From Terriglobia bacterium (lineage in GTDB: Bacteria; Acidobacteriota; Terriglobia; Terriglobales; Acidobacteriaceae): DNA of 64,000 bases. The position numbers were made by a program, and so were the translations under genes. Positions 14,525-61,100 of the stretch are shown piece by piece (the first letter of the stretch is position 1; every line of letters starts with the position of its first letter). Below the pieces are notes generated by a model, which worked only from the letters and a program-made list of their open reading frames with translations, did not search any database and was not told where the DNA came from. The stretch is taken from contig JAIQGL010000032.1 of assembly GCA_020072585.1 (NCBI GenBank), positions 1-64,000 of the forward strand. Reading direction: 5' to 3'.

Positions 14525-17281
14525 ATGGTCGCCATGCGTTCTCACTACAGGTGTCCTCGCCTAAAGCCATATAGACGTGCGCTTGCTTGTACCGTTGCCT
14601 TCTTATTTTCCGCCCAAATTCTCCTGTCTGATACCCGGCCGTTGCCGGAAGACCGTGGCGCCGTGCATCTTGCCCAGCTGCTGACCAAGCTGAAAACCAC
14701 GGCACGCTTCATGCAGGTCGTGGCCCATCCTGACGATGAAGATGGCGGCTTGCTCACCCTGGAAGCACGCGGCAATGGCGCTACCGCGTTGCTCTTCACC
14801 GTCACCCGCGGCGAAGGCGGGCAGAACAAGTTTGGCGCAGAAAGCTCTGACGAACTGGGCATTCTTCGCACGCTGGAGCTCCTGGAAGCGGACAAGTATT
14901 ACGGCGTGGAGCAGCGCTTCAGCCACGTGGTGGACTTCGGTTTTTCCAAGACCGCGGAAGAGACCTTCAACAAATGGCACGGGCATGACGTGGCTCTGGG
15001 AGACCTGGTTCGGGCGATCCGTATTTTCCGGCCAGACGTTCTGACCAGCCGCTTCAGCGGCACCAAGCGCGATGGACATGGCAACCATGAAGCTTCCGGC
15101 GTGCTGACCCTTGAGGCTTTCCGCGCTGCCGCCGATCCCAACCGCTTTCCCGAACAGATTAAAGAAGGCCTGCTGCCCTGGCAGGCGAAAAAGCTTTACC
15201 TGGGAAATCCTCCGGGCATGTTTCAGCGCGGCGCCGTGGCCGACGAAGATTACACCATCAAGATGAACATCGGCGAATACAACCCTCTGCTGGGAATGTC
15301 TTACACGCAATTTGCGCTGGAAGGACTGGCCCATCAGACGTCACAAGGCACGGGCGGCATCCGCGTGCCTCCGGGGCCGCGCTATACGTATTACAAATTG
15401 ACCGATTCAACGCTGCCCAAACCCGCCGCCGCGGCGCACGAGCAGGACTTCTTTGACGGCATTGATACATCGCTGGTCGGGCTTGCTGCGCGACTGGGCG
15501 CGGAGGAATCAAAGGTTCCTTTCTTGAAGCCTGCGTTGGAGTCATTGCAGAAGCATGTCGATGCTGCGAGCAAAGCTTTCTCGCTACAAGATCCTTTACC
15601 CTGCGCGCCGGAATTGCTTGCAGGACGAGACGAAGCAGAAAAACTGGTCCATCAGTTAGAAGATTCGCAGCTTCCTGCTCCTGCCAAGGACGAGTTGCTT
15701 ACCACGTTGCGCACCAAGCTGGAACAATTCCAGCAGGCGTCCAACGAGTCGCTCGGAATTTTCTTTGAAATTACGGTAGATCCTCCCGGACCGCCACCGG
15801 GCCCCTCGTATTTCCCGCGCATGGAGCAGACCTTGAGCATGGCCGTATCGGGCCAGAGCTTCACGGTCACGGCCCGACTTTATAATCGGGGCAAGGCCAC
15901 AGTGCTTCCACAGGGATTCGCCATCGAAGCAGCCGACGGGTGGAAGATTGAACATCTCGGGTCTCCTTCCAGCCCAAGTCCTTACGTGCCCCTCAAGAGT
16001 GGTGACGCGTCCACTACCCAGTTCAAGCTAACCGTTCTTGAAAATGCTCAGGACACAAAACCTTATTTCATGCGTGCAGACCCTGAAGCCGAAACGTTCT
16101 ATTCCATCAGCGATCCCAAATATCTGACGCTGCCTTGGTCGCCTTACCCTGTACGTGGCTATGCCAGGTTCACCGTGGGCAGTGGTTCTGGCGAGGCCAG
16201 GGGCATCGCCAAAATCAAATTCGTCGATCCCACGCTCGGCCAGTCAGAGCGTCCGCTTGCGATCGGCCCACCAATCTCTGTCATGCTGACTTCCCCTGTC
16301 GTGGTAGCTCCCGTTGTAGGCGCGGGAAAATCGCAAATCGGCGTCAGCGTACGGAGCAACGTGCAAAACGCGGTCCACGCCAAACTGAAATTGGAAACGC
16401 CGCAAGGATGGAAGGTCGAACCCGCCGAAATCGCCGTCGATCTGGACCACGATGGCGACGTGAATAATTACGCATTCCAGATCACGCCGCAGAACCTTCA
16501 CGAAGGCACATACAAAGTCACGGCGCGCGCCGAATACAACGGCAAGCAGTATGCCGAAGGGTTCAAGGTAATCACGCGGCCCGATCTTGATTCCTATTAT
16601 GCCTATCGCCCGGCAACAGAAAATGTGCAGGCCGTGGACGTGAAGCTGCCCGGGCAGCTCAAGGTCGGCTACATCATGGGCACCGGGGATGAAATCCCTT
16701 CGGTACTGCAAAGCGTCGGATTGAATACCAGTATCATCACGCCGCAGGAACTTGCTTCCGGCGATCTCAGCCGCTACGGAACCATCATCGTCGGCATTCG
16801 CGCGTATGACACGCGGACTGATGTGCGCGAACATAACCGCCGCCTGCTCGATTATGTGAATCGCGGCGGAACGCTCATCGTCCAATATAACCAGGGCACC
16901 AACGCCTTCAATGACGGCCATTACACGCCTTATCCCGCCACAGCGGCCAATGTGCGCGTCTCCGTGGAAGAGCAGCCGGTGGAGATTCTTGCGCCGGAGG
17001 ATCGTGTCTTCAACTGGCCGAACAAGATCACGCAAAAAGATTTTGACGGCTGGGTGCAGGAGCGTGGACTTTATTTCATGTCGCAATGGGACACGCAGTT
17101 CAAGCCGCTGCTTGCCTCGAATGATCCGGGCGAGCCATCACAAAAAGGCGGCCTCTTGATGGCACATTACGGCAAGGGAATTTATATCTTCTCTGCATAC
17201 GGATTTTCGCGGCAGCTTCCCGCTGGAGTTCCCGGGGCCATCCGCCTGTTTGTGAATCTGGTAAGCGCGGGACATCAATGA
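14525..17281 (+). CDS. Secreted PIG-L family deacetylase
   Basis: The 918-residue protein has an N-terminal hydrophobic segment (about 18-34) and the PIG-L/LmbE zinc motif AHPDDE at 67-72, followed by TRGEGGQNKF and the distal HGNHEASG (His ligand). Such enzymes remove acetyl groups from N-acetylglucosamine-type substrates. The C-terminal half carries beta-rich stretches like NEW3/NPCBM-associated domains (about 440-690) and, near 755-900, a segment resembling ThuA-like or glutamine-amidotransferase folds (IIVGIRAYDTR..VNRGGTLIVQYN). It is translationally coupled to the next gene by an ATGA overlap at 17278-17281. The substrate is unknown. Confidence 0.88.
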   Translation: MVAMRSHYRCPRLKPYRRALACTVAFLFSAQILLSDTRPLPEDRGAVHLAQLLTKLKTTARFMQVVAHPDDEDGGLLTLEARGNGATALLFTVTRGEGGQNKFGAESSDELGILRTLELLEADKYYGVEQRFSHVVDFGFSKTAEETFNKWHGHDVALGDLVRAIRIFRPDVLTSRFSGTKRDGHGNHEASGVLTLEAFRAAADPNRFPEQIKEGLLPWQAKKLYLGNPPGMFQRGAVADEDYTIKMNIGEYNPLLGMSYTQFALEGLAHQTSQGTGGIRVPPGPRYTYYKLTDSTLPKPAAAAHEQDFFDGIDTSLVGLAARLGAEESKVPFLKPALESLQKHVDAASKAFSLQDPLPCAPELLAGRDEAEKLVHQLEDSQLPAPAKDELLTTLRTKLEQFQQASNESLGIFFEITVDPPGPPPGPSYFPRMEQTLSMAVSGQSFTVTARLYNRGKATVLPQGFAIEAADGWKIEHLGSPSSPSPYVPLKSGDASTTQFKLTVLENAQDTKPYFMRADPEAETFYSISDPKYLTLPWSPYPVRGYARFTVGSGSGEARGIAKIKFVDPTLGQSERPLAIGPPISVMLTSPVVVAPVVGAGKSQIGVSVRSNVQNAVHAKLKLETPQGWKVEPAEIAVDLDHDGDVNNYAFQITPQNLHEGTYKVTARAEYNGKQYAEGFKVITRPDLDSYYAYRPATENVQAVDVKLPGQLKVGYIMGTGDEIPSVLQSVGLNTSIITPQELASGDLSRYGTIIVGIRAYDTRTDVREHNRRLLDYVNRGGTLIVQYNQGTNAFNDGHYTPYPATAANVRVSVEEQPVEILAPEDRVFNWPNKITQKDFDGWVQERGLYFMSQWDTQFKPLLASNDPGEPSQKGGLLMAHYGKGIYIFSAYGFSRQLPAGVPGAIRLFVNLVSAGHQ

Positions 17282-18756
17282 CAGAGGTCCCACAACCAGT
17301 GCCCCAGCTAGCGCGAGAAATCAACCTGGGCCAGGCCACCGCGCTCAACATCATTGACATGATCGGCGTGGGGCCGTTCGTCACCATCCCGCTGATCATT
17401 CACGCCATGCATGGGCCGCAAGCGATGTTGGGCTGGGTGCTGGGCGCGCTGCTGGCCATGTGCGACGGCCTGGTCTGGGCGGAGCTGGGCGCATCCATGC
17501 CGCAGGCTGGCGGCTCATACCAATACCTAAGAGAAAGCTACGGCGCAAAGCGGCTGGGCCGGTTGATGTCATTCCTGTTCGTCTGGCAGTTGATCTTCAG
17601 CGCGCCGCTTTCCATCGCCTCCGGCTGCCTGGGCATCGCCCGTTACGCGGAATATGTCTGGCCATCATTGAGTCAGGTGCTGGTGGAGCGCACAGTATCG
17701 TTAGGACTGTGGGGCCTGGGCTCGCTTGAGTTCCGCCTGTTCATCACGCATGGCACGTTTCTTGCCATGGCAAGTTGCCTGCTCGCGCTGTGGCTGCTGT
17801 ACCGGCGCGTCTCGGTGATCGGGCAGCTGGCGCGATATCTTTCCGTCGGCGTGCTGGGCGCGATCCTGCTGGTCATCGTCGCCGGCCTTACCCACTTCAA
17901 CGCGGCGCGGGCATTTACGTTTTCTCCCGGAGCATTCAATTTCTCTTCCGGCTTTATCACCGGACTGGGCGCTGCCATGCTGGTGGCCACCTATGATTAC
18001 TGGGGCTATTACAACGTCTGCTTCCTGGGCGCGGAGATCAAGCGTCCGGAGCGCAATATTCCCCGCGCCATCCTGATCTCCATTGTCGTTGTCGGCGTGC
18101 TTTATTTGCTGATGAACATCAGCATCTTGGGCGTGCTTCCCTGGCAGGAGCTGGACCAGGCTGCCGCCAGCGAATCGCGCTTCTATGTGGCGTCCACACT
18201 GCTGCAACGCACCTTCGGCACATGGTGGGGGATGTTTGGCGCCTTCCTGATCATGTGGACAGCATTCGCTTCCGTGTTTTCGCTCATGCTTGGCTACTCC
18301 CGCGTTCCCTATGCCGCGGCGCAGGATGGAAACTATTTTCGCTTCTACGCCAAGCTGCACCCGAGAAACCAATTCCCTCACCGTTCATTGCTCACGCTGG
18401 GAATTGTGGCCACCGTCTTCTGCATGTTGCGCTTGCAGGACGTAATCGCCGCCCTGGTGGTGATCCGCATCATGGTGCAGTTTCTCATGCAGGTGCTCGG
18501 CCTCCTGCTCTTGCGTGCGCGACGGCCCGAGTTCCCTCGTCCCTTCCGCATGTATCTTTATCCCATTCCTGCGGTCCTGGCGGCGCTGGGATTCATCTAC
18601 ATTCTTTATGCCCGTCCGAACCTGAAAGAAATCAAGTTCGGCATAGGCATCGCTTTTGTTGGCATCGTACTCTTTTTGGCCCGCTCCTGGCAGCGCAAGG
18701 AATGGCCGTTTTCCGGGCAGCCTGCTCACGATCCTGCCGCGGAGACAGTCCAATGA
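17278..18756 (+). CDS. APC-superfamily amino acid/polyamine permease
   Basis: The 492-residue polytopic protein has about 12 membrane helices and the APC opening signature INLGQATALNIIDMIGVGPFVTIPLI, with WAELGASMPQAGGSYQYLRESYG in helix 3 and ATYDYWGYYNVCFLGAEIKRPERNIPRA further on, all typical of amino acid permeases. It is coupled to the PIG-L gene by the ATGA overlap and precedes the MFS gene by 6 bases, so the three form an operon. An amino sugar or amino acid released by the deacetylase could be the substrate, which is an inference from operon structure only. Confidence 0.93.
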   Translation: MTEVPQPVPQLAREINLGQATALNIIDMIGVGPFVTIPLIIHAMHGPQAMLGWVLGALLAMCDGLVWAELGASMPQAGGSYQYLRESYGAKRLGRLMSFLFVWQLIFSAPLSIASGCLGIARYAEYVWPSLSQVLVERTVSLGLWGLGSLEFRLFITHGTFLAMASCLLALWLLYRRVSVIGQLARYLSVGVLGAILLVIVAGLTHFNAARAFTFSPGAFNFSSGFITGLGAAMLVATYDYWGYYNVCFLGAEIKRPERNIPRAILISIVVVGVLYLLMNISILGVLPWQELDQAAASESRFYVASTLLQRTFGTWWGMFGAFLIMWTAFASVFSLMLGYSRVPYAAAQDGNYFRFYAKLHPRNQFPHRSLLTLGIVATVFCMLRLQDVIAALVVIRIMVQFLMQVLGLLLLRARRPEFPRPFRMYLYPIPAVLAALGFIYILYARPNLKEIKFGIGIAFVGIVLFLARSWQRKEWPFSGQPAHDPAAETVQ

Positions 18757-18762
18757 TTTGTT

Positions 18763-20046
18763 ATGTCCGCAATCCCCTCGAGGCCTGCTAGCTCCATGGA
18801 GACCCCGGCTTCCACGCAGGTCGCGACAGCCCATCACTCCGCGCTCTCGCCGCTGCGTGAGCCGCTGTTCCGCAGCCTTTGGATCGCCGCCGTAATCTCT
18901 TACACCGGGAGCTGGATGCAGAACGTCGCCACCGGCTGGCTGATGACCTCGCTCACCAGTTCGCCGATGTGGGTTGCCCTGGTGCAGGTGGCGGTAAGTC
19001 TTCCGGTGTTCCTGATCGCGCTGCCCGCCGGAGCTCTGGCCGATATTGTTGACCGGCGCAAGTTTCTTCTTTTTACCCAGGGTTCCATGGTCGCTGCGGC
19101 AACTGTGCTCGGCGTAATGACCCTTACCCGGACCGTCACTCCGCAAATCCTGCTGGTATTTACCTTCCTGCTGGGAGTAGGCGCGGTCATGAACGATCCT
19201 GCGTGGCAATCGCTTACGCCCGATCTCGTGCCGCCCCAGCAGCTGGCGGCAGCCGTGGCTTTAAATTCCGCTGGATTCAATATTGCCCGCGCTGTGGGCC
19301 CGGCGTTGGGCGGTCTGGTCATTGCCACGTGCCAGGGAACCACCACAGGTTCAGGCCGGACGTATCTGCTGAATGCATTTTCTTTTTTTGGCGTCATCCT
19401 CTTTCTGTATCACTGGAAGCCGGCCAAAACAGAGCAGCGGCATGGCGCCTCTACGTTTACCGGCGCCATTACGGTTGGCCTGCGCTATGCCCGGCAGGAG
19501 CCGCGCATACGCACCGTGCTGGTGCGCACATTGCTGTTTTCGCTTTTTGCCAGCTCTTTCTGGGCATTGCTCCCGCTGATCGCCAGCAAGTTCGGCGCGG
19601 AAGGATTTGGCGCGATGCTCGCGTTCTTCGGTCTGGGCGCGCTCGGCGGCGCGGGTGTTCTGTCTCTCGCGCGACGGAGACTGTCACCGGACGCTGTGAT
19701 CGCTTTTGCCACTTTGGCTTTTGCTGTGGCGCTTTGCGGCCTGGTTCGGGCACACTCGCTGGTGGTCGCTTCAGCCTTTTCTGCTGCCGCCGGATTGGCT
19801 TGGATCAGCATTCTGGCAACGTTAAATCTGGCCGCTCAGACGGCGGCGCCAGCCTGGGTGCGCGCCCGCGTGATCTCCATGTATGTACTGGTCCTGCAAG
19901 GTGGGCTGGCGCTGGGCAGCGCCGTGTGGGGCGCTGTTGCTTCCAATTCGAGTGTCCAGTTCACACTTACCTTTGCAGCAGCTGCGCTTACCGCGGGCCT
20001 GTTGCTGGGGCCGTGGTATCGTTTGCGGCAGTCCGGCCTTGCATAG
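18763..20046 (+). CDS. MFS exporter (EntS/MFS_3-like)
   Basis: The 427-residue protein has about 12 membrane helices after a hydrophilic N-terminus. FRSLWIAAVISYTGSWMQNVATGWLM and ALPAGALADIVDRRKFLLFTQ are characteristic of the MFS_3 (enterobactin-exporter-like) group of drug or siderophore exporters, and NDPAWQSLTPDLVP is also typical. It starts 6 bases after the permease stop. The ATG at 18796 (METPAST) is an alternative start. Confidence 0.92.
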   Translation: MSAIPSRPASSMETPASTQVATAHHSALSPLREPLFRSLWIAAVISYTGSWMQNVATGWLMTSLTSSPMWVALVQVAVSLPVFLIALPAGALADIVDRRKFLLFTQGSMVAAATVLGVMTLTRTVTPQILLVFTFLLGVGAVMNDPAWQSLTPDLVPPQQLAAAVALNSAGFNIARAVGPALGGLVIATCQGTTTGSGRTYLLNAFSFFGVILFLYHWKPAKTEQRHGASTFTGAITVGLRYARQEPRIRTVLVRTLLFSLFASSFWALLPLIASKFGAEGFGAMLAFFGLGALGGAGVLSLARRRLSPDAVIAFATLAFAVALCGLVRAHSLVVASAFSAAAGLAWISILATLNLAAQTAAPAWVRARVISMYVLVLQGGLALGSAVWGAVASNSSVQFTLTFAAAALTAGLLLGPWYRLRQSGLA

Positions 20047-20073: not shown

Positions 20074-20664
20074 ATGAAATACGTAAAACTGTTCTACGTT
20101 CTAGTGCTGCTTGGCGTCGCCGCCACCGCCTTTGCGCAAAAAGCAGTTCAGGATGAGACAAGCCCAGGGCGCGAGACTTTGGCTGGTGTCATCGATAAAG
20201 AGATCACTAACCTGGAAAATCAATTCGTTGGCGCGGCTGAAGCCATGCCGGAAAACAAGTTTGACGCCAGTCCGGAAACATGGAAGCTTCCTGGCAGCGA
20301 ATTCAAAGGCGTTCGCACTTTTGCAGGACAGATCAGGCACGTGGCGGCGGACAATATTGCTATCTGTGCCCCGTTAGCCGACCAACCTGAGCCAGCCGGC
20401 AATAACGCTCCGAACGGGCCCATGAATTTGACGACGAGGGCTGAGCTGCTCAAGTTCCTCAAAGACTCTTTCTCGTTCGGCCACAAGGCTGTCGCCGGCC
20501 TGACCAGCGCGAATGAGTTGGAATTAGTGGAGTTTCGCGGTAAAAAAGTTACCCGGATCTCATTGGCCATTCTGGCTCTGACCCATACCAACGATCATTA
20601 CGGACAAATGGTGGAATATCTGCGAATGAATGGAATCGTTCCACCCGCGAGCCGCCCAAGATAG
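20074..20664 (+). CDS. Exported DinB-fold protein 1 of the array
   Basis: The 196-residue protein has a signal peptide ending AFAQ (about residue 22) and a DinB-like four-helix body. The expected metal-binding histidines are present: His89 in QIRHVAADN and His171/His175 in THTNDHYGQ. The C-terminus VEYLRMNGIVPPASR is shared with the neighbouring copies. DinB-fold enzymes such as bacillithiol and mycothiol S-transferases are usually cytoplasmic, so export is unusual. Between this gene and the next there is no terminator, so the two are probably co-transcribed. Function unknown. Confidence 0.9.
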   Translation: MKYVKLFYVLVLLGVAATAFAQKAVQDETSPGRETLAGVIDKEITNLENQFVGAAEAMPENKFDASPETWKLPGSEFKGVRTFAGQIRHVAADNIAICAPLADQPEPAGNNAPNGPMNLTTRAELLKFLKDSFSFGHKAVAGLTSANELELVEFRGKKVTRISLAILALTHTNDHYGQMVEYLRMNGIVPPASRPR

Positions 20665-20735
20665 TGCGTATGCGAAAGTCCTAAAACCAGATTCCGGAAA
20701 ATCAATGCCAATGAATCGCTGAAAGAGGAGAAACG

Positions 20736-21341
20736 ATGAAACACCTGAGAACATTCTGCATGGTCGGGGCGCTGAGCTTCGCCGCAAGCATATTTGCACA
20801 AACACCCGCCGCTACGCCCGCGCCGCCCAAGGCCCCACCGACGATTGCCTCCATCGTTGAGCAGCAAGTCGGCATTCTGGAAAGAGAATTTGTCGGCGCG
20901 GCTGAAGCCATGCCGGAAGACAAGTACAACTTTGCACCCGGCAGCCTCAACATCCAGGGCAGTGAATTTAAGGGCGTTCGCACTTTTGCCGACCAGGTAA
21001 AACACGTGGCGGCGACCAACTATCTGCTGTGGGGCGCCATCACCGGTGACAAATCGCCTATCGAAATCAAGGACGATAACGGTCCTGCATCTCTGAAAAC
21101 CAAAGCTGAGATCGTAAAGTATTTGAAGGATTCTTTCGCGCTCGGGCACAAAGCAACAAAGTCGCTTACGGCGGAAAACGCGGTCGCCATGGTTCCCAGC
21201 CCGTTCGGGCCGGGACAGCAGGTGTCCAAGCTATTCTGCGCCACATTCTCCGTGGCACACGGCTTTGATCATTACGGCCAGACGGTGGAATACCTGCGCA
21301 TGAACGGAATTGTTCCGCCCGCCAGCCGCGGCGGCAACTAG
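20736..21341 (+). CDS. Exported DinB-fold protein 2 of the array
   Basis: 201 residues with a signal peptide ending IFAQ near 22 and a Pro/Ala spacer. Ligand histidines are His90 (QVKHVAATN) and His175/His179 (AHGFDHYGQ). The motifs VGAAEAMPEDKY and FKGVRTFA are nearly identical in the array members. The start follows AGAGGAG. A strong terminator at 21367 follows the gene. Confidence 0.92.
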   Translation: MKHLRTFCMVGALSFAASIFAQTPAATPAPPKAPPTIASIVEQQVGILEREFVGAAEAMPEDKYNFAPGSLNIQGSEFKGVRTFADQVKHVAATNYLLWGAITGDKSPIEIKDDNGPASLKTKAEIVKYLKDSFALGHKATKSLTAENAVAMVPSPFGPGQQVSKLFCATFSVAHGFDHYGQTVEYLRMNGIVPPASRGGN

Positions 21342-21366
21342 GCTGTTACCACAGAGGCACCGCAGA

Positions 21367-21400
21367 ACACGGGGAATGAAATCCCCGTGTTTTTTCTTTA
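21367..21400 (+). terminator. Rho-independent terminator after DinB copy 2
   Basis: A 9-bp stem (21367-21375 with 21382-21390) with a 6-base loop is followed by a run of T residues from 21390. The upstream CCACAGAGGCACCGCAG belongs to the dispersed CACGGAG-type repeat. Confidence 0.85.
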
Positions 21401-21490
21401 GAAGCGTGCCGACGGGCGGGCGGGTAGTGCGGATGAGGCGTCCGTGATATCTTTCTCCGTCGCTCGATTCGACATGAGGAGAGTTCCACA

Positions 21491-22126
21491 ATGAAACATC
21501 TGAGAATGCTGTGCTTGCCGGCCATCCTGGGTTTGGCTACTGCCGCTTCCGCGCAGGCTGGAGCCAAGCCTGCTGCGCCCGCTTCGTCGCCCGCAGCAAC
21601 TGCGGCTGCGCCGCAGGCCCAGCCCGCGCCGCTCACGACCATCGCTGCAATCGTGGACCGCCAGGTAAGCCAATACGAGAAGAATGTGGTGGACGCGGCC
21701 GAAGCCATGCCGGCAGACAAATTTGACTTCAGCCCCGCCGGCCTCAATATTTCCGGCAGCTCTTACAAAGACGTGCGTACCTTCGCCCAGCTGGTAAAGC
21801 ATACCGCCACCGCCAACTATCGTTTCTGGACCACGTTGACGGGCGAGAAGATGCCGGAGAACATCAAAGGCACCAATGGTCCTGACGAACTGAAGACCAA
21901 GGCGGAGATCATCCAGTTCCTGAAGGACTCATTTGCCGTCGGCCATCGCGCCGCCAAGACCCTGACCGCTGAAAACGCGGCTGAACAGCTGCCTTTCTTC
22001 CGCGGCACCGCAGCCCGTCTTTACATAGCGTCAGGGGCTGTCATCCATGACGCTGATGAATACGGACAGATGGTGGAATACCTGCGCATGAACGGCATTG
22101 TTCCGCCCGCAAGCCGGGGCAACTAG
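21491..22126 (+). CDS. Exported DinB-fold protein 3, third metal ligand changed to Glu
   Basis: 211 residues: signal peptide to about residue 22 (ASAQA), a Pro/Ala-rich spacer to 45, then the DinB-like body. His104 (LVKHTATAN) and His186 are kept, but the position of the last histidine is Glu190 (IHDADEYGQ instead of H-x3-H). Glu can bind metal, so activity may remain or have changed. The start follows GAGGAG. It has its own terminator. Confidence 0.92.
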   Translation: MKHLRMLCLPAILGLATAASAQAGAKPAAPASSPAATAAAPQAQPAPLTTIAAIVDRQVSQYEKNVVDAAEAMPADKFDFSPAGLNISGSSYKDVRTFAQLVKHTATANYRFWTTLTGEKMPENIKGTNGPDELKTKAEIIQFLKDSFAVGHRAAKTLTAENAAEQLPFFRGTAARLYIASGAVIHDADEYGQMVEYLRMNGIVPPASRGN

Positions 22127-22147
22127 CTTTCACGGCAGAGAACACAG

Positions 22148-22182
22148 AGCGCGGAGAAAGATGGAACCTCCGCGCTTTTTTT
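22148..22182 (+). terminator. Rho-independent terminator after DinB copy 3
   Basis: A 9-bp stem (22148-22156 with 22168-22176) with an 11-base loop is followed by seven T residues. Its left flank again derives from a CACGGCAGAGAACACAGAG repeat. Confidence 0.85.
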
Positions 22183-22295
22183 GCGTACTGAGTCTTGGGG
22201 ACTTGCCGTGCCCCGGAAAACATGTGCGCGCGGCGCCGCCTGCGCGGCGCCGTGACATTATTTTACGCCGACATTACATGACGAGGAGATCGCCC

Positions 22296-22925
22296 ATGAA
22301 ACATCTACGTACCATCTGCCTGCTGATAGTGCTCAGCGCTGCCACCGCCGCGGTAAGCCAGGGACCGGGCGCAGCGGCAGCCAAACCGGCAACTCCGGCG
22401 CCACAGGCACAAACATCGCCACAACCGGCGCCCACCGTAGCCGGCATGATTGAACGCCAGGTCAGCGCCAGTGAAAAACAGATCATTGAAGCTGCTGAGG
22501 CCATGCCGGAGGAAAAATACAACTTTTCTCCGGAGTCGCTCAACATCCCCGGCAGTGATTACAAAGGCGTGCGTACGTTTGCCATGGAAGTGAAACATAT
22601 CGCCACGGACAACTTCGCGTTTTGGACACCCCTGACGGGCGATCCGTTCCCTGCCGGTATCAAGGGCCCCAATGGTCCGGATGAATTGAAGACCAAGGCG
22701 GAGATCATAAAATTCCTGAAAGATTCTTATGCTGTGGGACACAAGGCTGCCGCAACCGTGACCAATGAAAACTTCATGGAGCAGGTCACCTTCCGCATGG
22801 GAAAAGGACCAAGAATTTACCTGGCCATGAATCCCACATCCCATGCGAATGACCACTACGGACAGATGGTTGAGTACCTGCGCATGAACGGCATTGTTCC
22901 TCCGGCAAGCCGGGCCAACAACTAG
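22296..22925 (+). CDS. Exported DinB-fold protein 4 of the array
   Basis: 209 residues from the ATG at 22296, which follows GAGGAG and begins MKHLRTICLL like copies 2 and 3; the frame is open further upstream to 22098 but that part overlaps copy 3. Signal peptide to about 22 (AVSQ), Pro/Ala spacer, then His101 (EVKHIATDN) and His183/His187 (SHANDHYGQ), so the full triad is present. It ends with the same PPASR tail. A strong terminator follows. Confidence 0.92.
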   Translation: MKHLRTICLLIVLSAATAAVSQGPGAAAAKPATPAPQAQTSPQPAPTVAGMIERQVSASEKQIIEAAEAMPEEKYNFSPESLNIPGSDYKGVRTFAMEVKHIATDNFAFWTPLTGDPFPAGIKGPNGPDELKTKAEIIKFLKDSYAVGHKAAATVTNENFMEQVTFRMGKGPRIYLAMNPTSHANDHYGQMVEYLRMNGIVPPASRANN

Positions 22926-22951
22926 TTCACAAAAAATATTCTTTGCGTTTA

Positions 22952-22994
22952 CGGCGCGGATATTTGAAAACTCAAATCCCGCGCCGATTTTTTT
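22952..22994 (+). terminator. Rho-independent terminator after DinB copy 4
   Basis: An 8-bp GC-rich stem (22952-22959 with 22979-22986) contains an inner 6-bp ATTTGA/TCAAAT stem with an AAAC loop. A run of seven T residues follows. Confidence 0.88.
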
Positions 22995-23162
22995 GCCAGC
23001 AATACCCAGCCACGCTCTTGCCGTTCCGATCCGGAACTGACTTCGGAATTCATAAAACTTTCATCGCATGCCGTTCTGACTACAACACGTGCGATGTATG
23101 GTACAGGGGAGCCGTCCTCAGTCCCCGCTTGCTGACGGTCTACACCTGTTGGAGGAAGAACC

Positions 23163-24590
23163 TTGAAGATGAATAAAAAAAATTTCCGCAAGGTCATCAC
23201 ATTGGTAGTCATTGTTCTGGGTAGCGCCAACCTCTTCGGCTGGTCCGCTGAAGGGCATCAAGCAGTCGCCGATATAGCACAGCAGTTACTCACGCAGTCC
23301 GGCCAGTTTGCGCCGGTACAGGCAATTCTGGGCAACCTCACGCTGGCGCAAATTTCAACTTGCCCGGACGAACTGCGCGCATTCCAATCCAGCGGGACCG
23401 CCATGAGCGCTAACTGCAAACAGGTATTCACCACGCCAACGCCGCCCACCGGAACCAGCGGATGGCACTTTATTGACATCCCCGTTTCATTAACGAGCCC
23501 TACGCACGCTGATGTGGTTACTGCCTGCGGCTCCGCGTGCGTCCTGACTGAAGTTGACCGCTGGGGCACAGTGCTGGCCGATGCCACGCAATCCACCGGT
23601 GAACGTCTGCAGGCGCTGTCATTCATCGTGCATTTCATCGGCGACCTGCACCAGCCTCTGCACTCCGCCACTCGAGGCAGTGACGCCGGGGGCAACGCCG
23701 AGCAGGTAAGAATCGATGGCGGCACCACCAGCCTGCATCACGCATGGGACGCCAACCTTGTCAGCGATATCAATGCTGATCCCGCGGCGCTGGCGTCTGC
23801 TCTCAGCCCGGAGATTGCGGCAGCGCAGGCAGAAGCCCAGACCACGCCGGAAGACTGGTCAATCCAGGCGTTTCAGTTCGCCCGCACGGTTGCTTATGCT
23901 GGAATCCCTACCAGCACCAGCACCACCACGACACTCTCTACGACATACATTGCAAACGCAACTCCCGTGGTGCGGCAACAGATAGCGCGCGCAGGAGTCC
24001 GCCTGGCCCAGTTCCTTGCCGGTAAGCTGCCTTCCGGCACGCCAACGCCGACGCCCACACCCAATCCAACTCCAAATCCAACGCCGACGCCCGGCGCCAC
24101 GGAATTGCTTGGGAACAAGGGCTTTGAAGCAGGCGCAGCCAATCCATCGCCCTGGGGGTTTACGTCGACTCATACCCCAATTCAGATCATCAACAGCTCC
24201 ACCTCTGAGCCGCCACACTCCGGCACCTTTGACGCATGGATGAACGGTTGGGGGACCACCACCACAGACACTGTGCTGCAAACAGTAACCATACCTTCCA
24301 CGTCCATCTCAGCCACTCTGAGTTTCTGGCTGCATATTGACACTGCGGAAACCAGTACGACCAGTATGTTTGATACTTTGACGGTCCAGGTCCGTGATAC
24401 CAGCGGCAATGTGCTGCAAACGCTGGATACGTTCTCAAACCTGAATAAAGCGGCGGGATACCAGCAGCACAGTTACAACCTGAACGGTTTTATCGGAAAA
24501 ACGATCCAGATCTTCTTTAAAGGCGCGGAGGACTCGACACTCAAAACCTCTTTCGTCCTTGATGACGCTTCACTCCAAGTCAGTCCGTGA
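23163..24590 (+). CDS. Secreted S1/P1-type nuclease with C-terminal accessory domain
   Basis: S1/P1 nucleases are zinc-dependent enzymes that degrade single-stranded nucleic acids. After a signal peptide ending at about residue 22 the mature protein begins near Trp (WSAEGHQAVADIA), whose main-chain nitrogen normally binds zinc. Other ligands are visible: Asp in CPDELR, His in GWHFIDIP, His/Asp/His in FIVHFIGDLHQPLH, and His/Asp in LHHAWDANLV. A PT-rich linker (near 295-315) leads to a C-terminal beta domain (about 317-475) that may bind carbohydrate or the cell surface. GGAGG lies 7 bases before the TTG at 23163 but 13 before the ATG at 23169, so TTG is preferred. Confidence 0.93.
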   Translation: MKMNKKNFRKVITLVVIVLGSANLFGWSAEGHQAVADIAQQLLTQSGQFAPVQAILGNLTLAQISTCPDELRAFQSSGTAMSANCKQVFTTPTPPTGTSGWHFIDIPVSLTSPTHADVVTACGSACVLTEVDRWGTVLADATQSTGERLQALSFIVHFIGDLHQPLHSATRGSDAGGNAEQVRIDGGTTSLHHAWDANLVSDINADPAALASALSPEIAAAQAEAQTTPEDWSIQAFQFARTVAYAGIPTSTSTTTTLSTTYIANATPVVRQQIARAGVRLAQFLAGKLPSGTPTPTPTPNPTPNPTPTPGATELLGNKGFEAGAANPSPWGFTSTHTPIQIINSSTSEPPHSGTFDAWMNGWGTTTTDTVLQTVTIPSTSISATLSFWLHIDTAETSTTSMFDTLTVQVRDTSGNVLQTLDTFSNLNKAAGYQQHSYNLNGFIGKTIQIFFKGAEDSTLKTSFVLDDASLQVSP

Positions 24591-25550: not shown

Positions 25551-26105
25551 TCAACTCTGCGGATCGATTCCGTTCATCCGCAGGTATTCGACCATCTGGC
25601 CATAAATGTCCCAGGGATGGGAGATGGCTGCAGTCACCACGGAAAGACGGGGCACTCGACCACCTTCAGGCAGCTCCACCACCTCCATCAGGTTGTGTTC
25701 GCTGACCGTGGCGATCCCCTTGTGTAGATAGGCAAATGATTCCTGCAGAAACTTCACCACGTCGTCTTTGCTCTTAAGTGAATCAGGACCGTTTTCATGC
25801 GGGCCGGGTTCAATCGGCATCTTTTCTCGCAGCAGGGCGGCGCCCATTTGGTAGTTGGCCACCGCTATATGTTTGGCCAATTGGGCAAACGTACGGACGC
25901 CTTTGAATGCGCCGCGCTTAGGCGCAAAGTTATAGAGAGAATCCGGCATTTTCTCAGCCAGCGCCAGGGTCGCGTGTTCGGGCCCGTCAATGGATCTATC
26001 AAAAACTTCTACCACCGAGGTTGGCGGCGTAATCTTCTTTACCTGGCCAAATAGGACACCAGGGCAGGCTAGCAGCATCAGGCATTCCATCCGCGAAAAA
26101 GTCAT
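25551..26105 (-). CDS. Exported DinB-fold protein 5, divergent copy with third ligand lost
   Basis: 184 residues with a short signal peptide (about 1-20, ending VLFGQ). It shares KGVRTFAQLAKHIAVANY and the C-terminal IYGQMVEYLRMNGI with the array at 20-23 kb. His79 and His163 are present, but the position of the last histidine is Ile167 (SHPWDIYGQ), which cannot bind metal. It lacks the PPASR tail and has KKITPPTSVVEVF at the N-terminus instead of the Pro/Ala spacer. Orientation is opposite to the array. Confidence 0.88.
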   Translation of the reverse strand: MTFSRMECLMLLACPGVLFGQVKKITPPTSVVEVFDRSIDGPEHATLALAEKMPDSLYNFAPKRGAFKGVRTFAQLAKHIAVANYQMGAALLREKMPIEPGPHENGPDSLKSKDDVVKFLQESFAYLHKGIATVSEHNLMEVVELPEGGRVPRLSVVTAAISHPWDIYGQMVEYLRMNGIDPQS

Positions 26106-44785: not shown

Positions 44786-44974
44786 CAGCAATTAGCAATA
44801 GCAACTAGCCAAAGCGCAACCGCAGATCAAACTCCTTACCACGGATGAACACGGATATCACGGATCAGTTCAGATTTCATCAAACCAGTTTTGAAAATTC
44901 GTAACATCCGTGTTTATCCGCGGTGAGGTTTTTGCTGTGGTTAATTGCCAATTGCTATTTGCTAGCTGCTACTT
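44786..44974. repeat. Repeat-filled spacer between E1 alpha and E1 beta genes
   Basis: Two repeat families are nested. AGCAATTAGCAA-type units are at 44786-44810 and 44941-44974. Between them is an inverted pair of the CACGGATGAACACGGAT type (44839-44868, with ACATCCGTGTTTATCCGCGG at 44904-44923). A reduced CACTGAT version is at 44758-44780. The right end overlaps the last codons of the E1 alpha gene. Confidence 0.7.
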
Positions 44975-46285
44975 GAAATGTATCGCCGCCTCCGTCTCTT
45001 TCAGCGTGCCTTCGCTTCGCTTCGCCTTTTTCGGAATGCCGTACTTTGGCTTGATCGTGTGGCAGCCGTCTTCGCAGAAGACACCTTCCGCGGCGGTATG
45101 TCCCTCAGGCATAGGAGAGTTCTCGGCAAACTCGCGCTCAGCGTCTATTTCTTTCTCTATGCCTGCAATCATTTCTTTGTCCTGCGCGGGCGTCAGCCAT
45201 TTTTTCTCCAGCAGATATTTTTGGAAGCGGTCAATGCAGTCGCGCTTACGCCAGAACTCGTGCATCTCTTTGGGGACGTAGGCCGCGGCGTCATGGATGG
45301 CGTGGCCCTTCATGCGCATCAGCTTGGCTTCGATCATGGTCGGGCCTTCGCCGCGGTGCGCGCGCTCCACCGCTTCATAGGTCGCATCGTAAACCTGGCA
45401 GGCGTCCGTGCCGTCAATGATCACGCCGGGCATGCCGTAGCCGATAGCGCGATTGGCCAGGTCTTTCACATTGACCTGATATTCCATAGGCGTGGAGTAG
45501 GCCCAGAGATTGCTTTCAATGATCAGCACCAGCCCCAGCTTGCGTACCGCGGCAAAGTTGATGCCTTCATAGCTCACGCCGGTGGATTGTCCGCCGTCGC
45601 CGATCCAGGTGAGGCAGGCAAGCTCTTTGCCCTGCAAACGCGCGCCGAGAGAGACGCCGGCCATCACCGGCAGCAGGTCGCCCAGCATGGAGATGGGGGA
45701 AACCATGTGGCGCTTCTCGATGTCGCCATAGTGCGAGGTGCCGTCTTTGCCGTGGGTCGGCGAGCCCGCCTTGGCCATGTATTGCATCATGATGTCGCGG
45801 GCGTGAAAGCCGCGGACCAGTTGCGCGCCCTGATTGCGGATCATGGGCGCAAACCAGTCGTCAGGCCCGAGCGCGTAAGCCGAGGCGCAGGAGCATGCTT
45901 CCTGTCCCAGACCAAAGTAAACGCCGCCGACAACCTTGCTCTGCTTGTAGAGATTTTCCAGCGCCACTTCCATGCGCCGGTTCATCACCATCCAACGGTA
46001 AAGTTCCAGGTGCTGGTCTTTGGTGAGGTACTTTGACTCGCGAATCGGCGGGACCGGCGTTGAGAGCTCGCCTTTGATTTCGTAATGGACTTCAGGGCCA
46101 TCGGTAACTTCGATGACCTCAAATTCCGGCTGCTCCAGCCGCCAGTCGGGGATGCCGTACTGGTTCACGCGGATTGCGGGAGCTTTGCCGGCAGGGCGGC
46201 CGTTGCCGGGTCTGCCGTTCGAAGACGCGCTCTTAACGGTCGGTTTGAGGCGGGAGTTCTTTTGGGTTTTGGTTTTCGTGGCCAT
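44969..46285 (-). CDS. 2-oxoacid dehydrogenase E1 component, alpha subunit
   Basis: The 438-residue protein has the thiamine-diphosphate motif GDGG..(about 24 residues)..N: GDGGQSTGVSYEGINFAAVR followed by LVLIIESN. Other family features are GLGQEACSCASAYALGPDDW and HGKDGTSHYGD. The C-terminal part carries a serine-rich-free regulatory loop region near HAIHDAAAYVPKEM. An Ala/Lys/Gly-rich N-terminal extension of about 45 residues precedes the conserved body. It is followed by the beta subunit gene. Confidence 0.95.
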   Translation of the reverse strand: MATKTKTQKNSRLKPTVKSASSNGRPGNGRPAGKAPAIRVNQYGIPDWRLEQPEFEVIEVTDGPEVHYEIKGELSTPVPPIRESKYLTKDQHLELYRWMVMNRRMEVALENLYKQSKVVGGVYFGLGQEACSCASAYALGPDDWFAPMIRNQGAQLVRGFHARDIMMQYMAKAGSPTHGKDGTSHYGDIEKRHMVSPISMLGDLLPVMAGVSLGARLQGKELACLTWIGDGGQSTGVSYEGINFAAVRKLGLVLIIESNLWAYSTPMEYQVNVKDLANRAIGYGMPGVIIDGTDACQVYDATYEAVERAHRGEGPTMIEAKLMRMKGHAIHDAAAYVPKEMHEFWRKRDCIDRFQKYLLEKKWLTPAQDKEMIAGIEKEIDAEREFAENSPMPEGHTAAEGVFCEDGCHTIKPKYGIPKKAKRSEGTLKETEAAIHFK

Positions 46286-60608: not shown

Positions 60609-61100
60609 TTACCTGATCACGGTGGAAGCAATGAAGTCATGCATCCAGTCCTGTTTGTAGCCCTGCTGGCGGAGATGTGTTGAGAGCTGGGCCCAGTGCC
60701 GGACGCTGTGCAGCAGAGCATGAATAAAGATCTTGCGGCGGCTGGCCGTGAATTCACCGGCCGAGCGCGTGGGAAAGGTGAGCAGGCCGTCCCAGTCAGA
60801 ATCATTGGCGGCGATAGCGAAGCTGCGCAGGTCCTCAAAACTTTTGCGCGAAAGCGCGAACAGCTCTTCCCCGCTCTTGCCCGCCAGCGTGTCATACTCC
60901 GTGATGGGCATGTTCAGAAGGCGCTCGGCGTAGCGCATCTGTACCGCCACAATGTGCAGCACCACTTCACGCACGGTCCTGGTACCGGCGATGTCGGCCG
61001 GCAGCGCCAGGGCGTCCGGCTGTTTGTGAAAGAAGTCGCGCCAGTGATTGTTTTCTTCCGCACAGTAGTCGAGCAGTTCACCGAAGCTCAGTCCGCGCAT
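60609..61100 (-). CDS. Cytoplasmic DinB-family protein
   Basis: The 163-residue protein lacks a signal peptide and has the DinB arrangement: a His in VVLHIVAVQMRYAERLL and His residues in HALLHSVRHWAQLSTHL, near the C-terminus. This is the ordinary soluble type, unlike the exported copies at 20-26 kb. The function is unknown, possibly a metal-dependent thiol transferase or hydrolase. Confidence 0.87.
   Translation of the reverse strand: MRGLSFGELLDYCAEENNHWRDFFHKQPDALALPADIAGTRTVREVVLHIVAVQMRYAERLLNMPITEYDTLAGKSGEELFALSRKSFEDLRSFAIAANDSDWDGLLTFPTRSAGEFTASRRKIFIHALLHSVRHWAQLSTHLRQQGYKQDWMHDFIASTVIR

Follow-up and report, generated by a model that had tools for sequence, protein, structure and literature searches.

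To our knowledge, DinB proteins form one of the largest bacterial protein families, with substrates that are mostly unknown, and the members studied so far act inside the cell. The Acidobacteriota are abundant in soil and poorly characterised. Here we describe a tandem array of four DinB genes with predicted export signals and its neighbouring genes in a stretch of 64,000 nucleotides (nt) from a Terriglobia bacterium (positions 1-64,000, forward strand, of contig JAIQGL010000032.1, assembly GCA_020072585.1), referred to below as the window. The array is best viewed as an old set of proteins of DinB fold, very probably exported and putatively metal-binding, and its linkage with a LmbE/PIG-L metallohydrolase gene and two transporter genes is the main new result.

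The closest described relatives belong to the DinB/YfiT S-transferase-like superfamily, including BstA-H of Bacillus, the mycothiol S-transferase of Mycobacterium tuberculosis and DR0053, which have in common with the window proteins the Pfam DinB_2 domain, a four-helix bundle and ligand positions in helices 2 and 4. All of the B. subtilis DinB proteins (8/8) were reported to be metal-dependent bacillithiol transferases, with three conserved His in BstA (PMC5815605), the LmbE enzymes Mca and Bca to cleave thiol conjugates (PMC4101496), and efflux pumps were proposed as exporters of the cleavage product (PMC10950700). The window proteins differ from the superfamily in being predicted to be exported, with a linker following the signal peptide, and in their tandem, PIG-L-linked arrangement, their activity being a prediction. 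The protein kinds of mycothiol/bacillithiol-conjugate detoxification, namely transferase, amidase and efflux protein, are all encoded in the window cluster, and the genome has bshA and bshC, but here the DinB proteins, and probably the PIG-L protein, carry export signals and there is an additional APC permease. DfsB, the sibling lethal factor precursor of Paenibacillus, is also secreted and of DinB fold (PMC4773401). An earlier note on this DNA had suggested a previously undescribed set of exported DinB-type proteins; this may hold for the set itself, as none of the five window copies matched an NCBIfam model at E 0.1 and no description of the exported family or of its gene order was found in searches of the open-access literature, but a secreted protein of this fold had already been published with the DfsB precursor. 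OCTIN, a periplasmic acidobacterial protein, was rejected as a relative since it is an FGE-domain protein (PMC5915273).

Organization and conservation of the gene cluster

The genes of the cluster and the terminator-like elements are as follows.

14525..17281, forward strand: LmbE/PIG-L metallohydrolase with NEW3 domain, 918 residues (PF02585, E 8e-14; PF10633, E 5e-9)
17278..18756, forward strand: APC amino-acid permease (PF13520, E 3e-45), overlapping the PIG-L gene by 4 nt
18763..20046, forward strand: MFS transporter of the MFS_3 type (PF05977, E 9e-119)
20074..20664, forward strand: DinB copy 1 (DinB_2, E 5e-7), signal-peptide-like N-terminus, putative triad His-His-His, starting 27 nt past the MFS gene
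20736..21341, forward strand: DinB copy 2 (DinB_2, E 6e-14), signal-peptide-like N-terminus, putative triad His-His-His, 71 nt past copy 1
21364..21399, forward strand: terminator-like hairpin with T run, downstream of copy 2 (fold z -3.2 against shuffles), also in the consensus scan
21491..22126, forward strand: DinB copy 3 (DinB_2, E 2e-7), signal-peptide-like N-terminus, putative triad His-His-Glu
22146..22184, forward strand: terminator-like hairpin with T run, downstream of copy 3 (fold z -4.0 against shuffles)
22296..22925, forward strand: DinB copy 4 (DinB_2, E 2e-6), signal-peptide-like N-terminus, putative triad His-His-His
22951..22995, forward strand: terminator-like hairpin with T run, downstream of copy 4 (fold z -3.1 against shuffles)
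25551..26105, reverse strand: DinB copy 5 (DinB_2, E 1e-12), putative triad His-His-Ile, signal peptide uncertain

From the PIG-L gene to copy 2 the genes lie on one strand with every gap at 71 nt or less. This run is probably an operon, co-transcription being inferred, and the terminator after copy 2 would be its end, because the gaps are small and the gap between copies 1 and 2 holds no terminator-like fold (z 0.1 against shuffles); across copies 1-4 the gaps measure 71, 149 and 169 nt. The terminators that the earlier note had placed after copies 2, 3 and 4 are borne out as hairpins with T runs, but they need not stand for four independent units, as copies 1 and 2 probably close the upstream operon, which leaves copies 3 and 4 as the only apparent units of their own. 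A consensus terminator scan gave nine sites against 8.5 expected from shuffles, which is uninformative alone, and the terminator calls therefore rest on the folds; with its loop limit of 8 the scan missed the hairpin after copy 3, and that after copy 4 was unlisted.

The run PIG-L, APC permease, MFS transporter and DinB is conserved in Acidobacteriota. Among 25 genomes searched in the window's own family, 20 had a strong DinB homologue (>140 bits), and in 17 of these the DinB gene lies on the same strand as, and near, at least one of the PIG-L, APC and MFS genes, mostly in the order PIG-L, APC, MFS, DinB. The MFS gene stands 1.7 kb off in one genome (G021) and is absent from the run in some others. 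A contig end interrupts the run in two of the three exceptions, with DinB on another contig (G002, G013), and in the third the genes lie apart (G024). Of 367 relatives confirmed in public genomes, the best 80, mainly from Acidobacteriota, were kept; at least one of the three neighbours is present at 32 of these 80 loci (PIG-L at 27, APC at 30, MFS at 23, all three at 19), and DinB lies between PIG-L and APC at two (L097, L108). The two sets of counts overlap, because five of the 80 loci are from genomes also in the searched-genome set. Among the order- and class-level relatives fetched, no DinB gene was found beside PIG-L within the flanks, and a permease homologue occurred in one only, 2.3 kb away on the opposite strand.

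Several other features of the window were recorded. A very GC-rich 11-bp hairpin (22229-22254) lies between the copy-3 terminator and copy 4, an S1/P1 nuclease gene (23163-24590), whose product weakly matches choice-of-anchor J at the C-terminus, follows the array immediately, and an ordinary DinB gene without a signal peptide is found on the reverse strand at 60609-61100. The sequence preceding the copy-2 terminator, tested as a dispersed repeat, has one site in the genome.

Distribution and age of the DinB family

The search of other genomes with a family profile, as proposed in the earlier note, found members in 36 of 41 genomes at E 1e-10. Across the phylum, with up to 16 candidates scored per genome, at least 20 of 199 genomes had members at E 1e-40, 16 of these 20 being in the window's own family. 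Within the genus, eight other genomes carry three tandem copies (G007), two (G001, G004, G005, G006) or one (G002, G003, G008), so that tandem pairs or triples occur in five of the eight; four copies in a row were seen only in the present genome.

Mature-domain identity is 46-64% among copies 1-4 and 39-43% between copy 5 and these four. In a quick tree with Shimodaira-Hasegawa-like approximate likelihood ratio test (SH-aLRT) support only and many weak deep branches, copy 1 falls with G005 and G007 genes (support 100), copy 2 with G004 and G006 (82), copy 3 with the His-His-Glu clade described below (97), and copies 4 and 5 with G002 (83) and G004 (100), respectively. Since each copy groups with genes of other genomes, the duplications appear from these sequences to be older than the species. 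A recent amplification of the array was rejected, because the copies are divergent, a search at score 50 detected no tandem DNA repeat, and the tree places each copy with genes of other genomes.

Some placements in the tree cross phyla. Seven rows from Verrucomicrobia (L099, L102-L104, L107, L109, L110) form a clade (support 100) among acidobacterial genes, and a record titled Deltaproteobacteria (L150) sits within an acidobacterial clade; these reflect either transfer between phyla or mis-binned contigs. A plasmid search gave two records, the best match being a DinB gene on plasmid NC_015058.1 of Granulicella tundricola (187403-187825; 43% identity over 74% of copy 2).

Export signals and C-terminal tail

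The claim of four consecutive DinB_2 genes with signal peptides at 20074-22925 was confirmed in the open reading frames (ORFs), the DinB_2 matches and the signal-peptide-like N-termini. All five window copies passed the Pfam DinB_2 (PF12867) cut-off (5/5), and copy 4 likely starts at the ATG at 22296, a longer ORF that opens with TTG at 22098 being a mechanical call. In copies 1-4 the N-terminus runs from a basic n-region through a hydrophobic stretch to an AxA-Q-like cleavage site, beyond which lies a low-complexity linker rich in Ala and Pro. Signal peptides were scored by a purpose-written simple rule, not a trained predictor; copies 1-4 pass it, and copy 5 fails on N-terminal charge. Export of this fifth copy, counted as exported in the earlier note, is therefore uncertain; it has an LLAC motif, a possible lipobox. 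The rule is loose: it also accepts 2.6% of internal windows (16/625) and 11.8% of sequences obtained by shuffling the first 60 residues (1575/13400).

This background, together with localisation predicted from sequence alone and several relatives with fragmentary N-termini, is what would speak for false signal peptides and ordinary cytoplasmic DinB transferases. Such an explanation is considered very improbable: of the 67 relatives in the alignment 61 pass the rule, the N-terminal pattern (basic, hydrophobic, AxA-Q) leads into the Ala/Pro linker, and most DinB genes of the same genome fail the rule. Among the 30 DinB_2 matches listed for the genome (E 0.001), 28 have a readable frame, of which 22, copy 5 included, fail in the DinB frame and six pass, namely copies 1, 2 and 4 and three others; copy 3 and a paralogue on contig 13, both outside the 30 listed matches, also pass. 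Copies 1-4 are thus very probably exported, and export appears to be a family trait that extends to other genomes. The earlier note had named false signal peptides and restriction of the array to a single strain as findings that would count against it; neither was found, since the predicted export is family-wide and is present in other genomes. As a separate observation, DinB_2 is strongly expanded genome-wide, with at least 30 matches (E 0.001) and at least eight superfamily genes with signal-peptide-like N-termini.

The C-terminal tail VEYLRMNGIVPPASR, identical in copies 1-4, consists of the end of the last, ligand-bearing helix and a short extension; copy 5 ends in VEYLRMNGIDPQS. The shared tail of the earlier note thus stands as an identity among four copies but not as a mark of the array. 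In 39 family rows from the window and the searched genomes, found by profile with the motif unused, YLRMN is kept in 36 and the full string in 12; as YLRMN is kept in members found in this way, the tail is, on sequence comparison, a family-wide signature rather than an array-specific one, and a role as sorting tag or array mark was rejected. More distant exported DinB proteins at profile-search loci have Y[LYM]R...PP in 34 of 35 rows. The 80 public loci are unusable for measuring tail conservation, because the candidates were picked with the peptide patterns D[HEI]YGQ[MT]VE and YLRMNGI[VD], the latter from the tail; the 67-row alignment shares this selection bias, as do its residue invariance and triad counts. 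At seven loci (L075, L076, L078, L080, L081, L084, L086) the family gene has beside it an exported DinB gene that is more divergent and has a YYRANN.VPP tail; the divergent DinB belongs to an ORF of about 590 residues at L080 and also at L091, there about 2.4 kb away.

Fold and putative metal site

The array proteins are predicted to have the four-helix DinB fold, as modelled for copy 4. The AlphaFold2 model, built with 67 sequences, had a mean predicted local distance difference test (pLDDT) score of 90.3 (about 98 in the mature part) and a predicted template modelling score of 0.79. A fold search with this model returned DinB structures at the top of the PDB list, the best being DR0053 DinB/YfiT (E 1.6e-5), in agreement with the fold named in the earlier note; the M. 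tuberculosis mycothiol S-transferase ranked 12, BstA 25 and DfsB 37. Direct searches of PDB sequences, made with copy 4 and with the family profile, gave nothing at E < 0.05.

Putative metal ligands in copy 4 are H101 (helix 95-114) and H183 and H187 (helix 173-197). As read from the residues, the predicted site has three His in copies 1, 2 and 4, Glu as third ligand in copy 3 and Ile in copy 5. Among 114 family rows the triad is His-His-His in 102, His-His-Glu in nine and His-His-Ile in two, with one row gapped at the second position; the first two His are present in 113 rows (the exception being the gapped ORF), and the third position is His in 103 including the gapped row, Glu in nine and Ile in two. 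The nine His-His-Glu rows correspond exactly to one clade (SH-aLRT 97; Glu in 9/9 members), comprising copy 3, the contig-13 paralogue, four genes from the genus and three loci from elsewhere in the Acidobacteriota, and the two His-His-Ile rows are copy 5 and its orthologue. The contig-13 gene (44872-45471; L035) is a sixth close paralogue in the genome, of the same class as copy 3. The ligands of the mycobacterial mycothiol S-transferase were reported as two His and one Asp (PMC10950700), a carboxylate ligand that resembles the third position of the copy-3 clade.

The putative metal-binding residues also bear on whether the proteins are enzymes at all. The DinB fold could serve here as a metal scavenger, or as a structural or signalling protein, by analogy with the secreted, DinB-fold DfsB, for which a non-enzymatic nature has been proposed (PMC4773401). 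The Ile in copy 5 and its orthologue and the large number of paralogues would fit such a role. DfsB, however, lacks the ligand residues, all three of which are kept as His in copies 1, 2 and 4, and it is a weak structural match at rank 37; invariant polar residues surround the putative site (in the 67-row alignment, with its motif-biased selection), and the genes cluster with a metallohydrolase and transporters. A non-enzymatic role is therefore judged unlikely.

The PIG-L neighbour

In the PIG-L neighbour the AHPDDE and HGxH motifs are kept throughout an alignment of 21 homologues, in keeping with the HxDD and distant His of LmbE/PIG-L proteins. Its N-terminus has a hydrophobic segment which fails the signal-peptide rule as annotated, and most homologues pass at some start; the protein is probably exported or membrane-anchored, to judge from these N-termini. 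A model of moderate quality (mean pLDDT 77.6) matched MshB, diacetylchitobiose deacetylase and LnmX in the PDB with similar E values. These have in common with the window protein the fold and the HxDD...H motif; the window protein differs in being large, multidomain and predicted to be exported.

These structural matches suit a glycan system, in which an exported PIG-L protein would deacetylate N-acetylglucosamine compounds such as pieces of chitin, peptidoglycan or exopolysaccharide, the DinB proteins would be metal-dependent hydrolases or binding proteins, and the transporters would move amino sugars or amino acids. Diacetylchitobiose deacetylases nearly equal MshB against the model, the NEW3 domain is of a glycosidase-associated kind, PIG-L is spread more widely than the DinB family, and an N-acyl-glucosamine core is found in all known LmbE substrates (PMC4101496). 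The permease, however, is of the amino-acid type, and glycoside hydrolases in the cluster were sought only through a Pfam scan of nine window proteins. Moreover, we know of no DinB protein that acts on glycans. The glycan system is regarded as possible but rather doubtful, and a thiol-related function is narrowly preferred to it.

A possible extracytoplasmic thiol pathway

We tentatively favour, by analogy with the described thiol systems and with a confidence well short of even, a function of the exported DinB proteins as metal-dependent thiol S-transferases or conjugate-handling enzymes that work with the LmbE/PIG-L protein and the transporters. The DinB proteins would act in this capacity outside the cytoplasm, the LmbE/PIG-L hydrolase would cleave an N-acyl-glucosamine bond in the manner of a bacillithiol-conjugate amidase, the MFS protein would move the thiol or conjugate outward, and the APC permease would recover the amino-acid product. 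As units of their own, copies 3 and 4 may add specificity or dosage. A fully specified extracytoplasmic pathway in Acidobacteriota, with exported DinB S-transferases, a LmbE conjugate amidase, an MFS exporter, an APC importer and His-His-His and His-His-Glu paralogues for different substrates, is less probable again and should be regarded as unlikely in this detailed form.

Part of the thiol context is present. BshC was found in 39 of 41 genomes, this one included, and BshA is above cut-off in this genome. Bacillithiol has been predicted in Acidobacteria on gene content, and low-molecular-weight thiols have been proposed to take part in periplasmic sulfur trafficking in other organisms (PMC6282198).

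Several observations weigh against a thiol function. In NCBIfam the mycothiol conjugate amidase Mca was the top match for all seven PIG-L proteins tested, but their scores of 51-62 (53 for the window protein) lie far below the 277-bit cut-off of this equivalog, and the window protein is three times the size of a PIG-L domain. Two other PIG-L genes tested in the genome also match Mca best, and because these controls give the same result the match does not discriminate and was rejected as evidence for a conjugate amidase. The comparable structural matches of the PIG-L model to MshB, diacetylchitobiose deacetylase and LnmX likewise fail to single out a thiol enzyme. Homologues of PIG-L were present in 38 of the 41 genomes, among them genomes that lack this DinB family, and at 48 of the 80 public loci, some on short contigs, DinB has none of the three neighbours within the flank. 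No BshB1 was found above cut-off in this genome (BshB2 was not searched); the missing deacetylase step may be performed by a divergent LmbE protein. Furthermore, no thiol is known to us outside the cytoplasm in this organism. The fold and family assignments, the ligand residues, the signal-peptide-like N-termini and the order of the genes with its conservation were computed, and metal binding, enzyme activity, substrate, direction of transport and co-transcription are inferred.

For the biology of the Acidobacteriota, the conserved linkage of DinB, PIG-L and transporter genes deserves more attention than the array. A conserved exported branch of DinB that gene order links with a second metallohydrolase and a pair of transporters provides a testable pathway context in this phylum and, if thiol conjugates are indeed handled outside the cytoplasm, would change the picture of where bacillithiol chemistry occurs.

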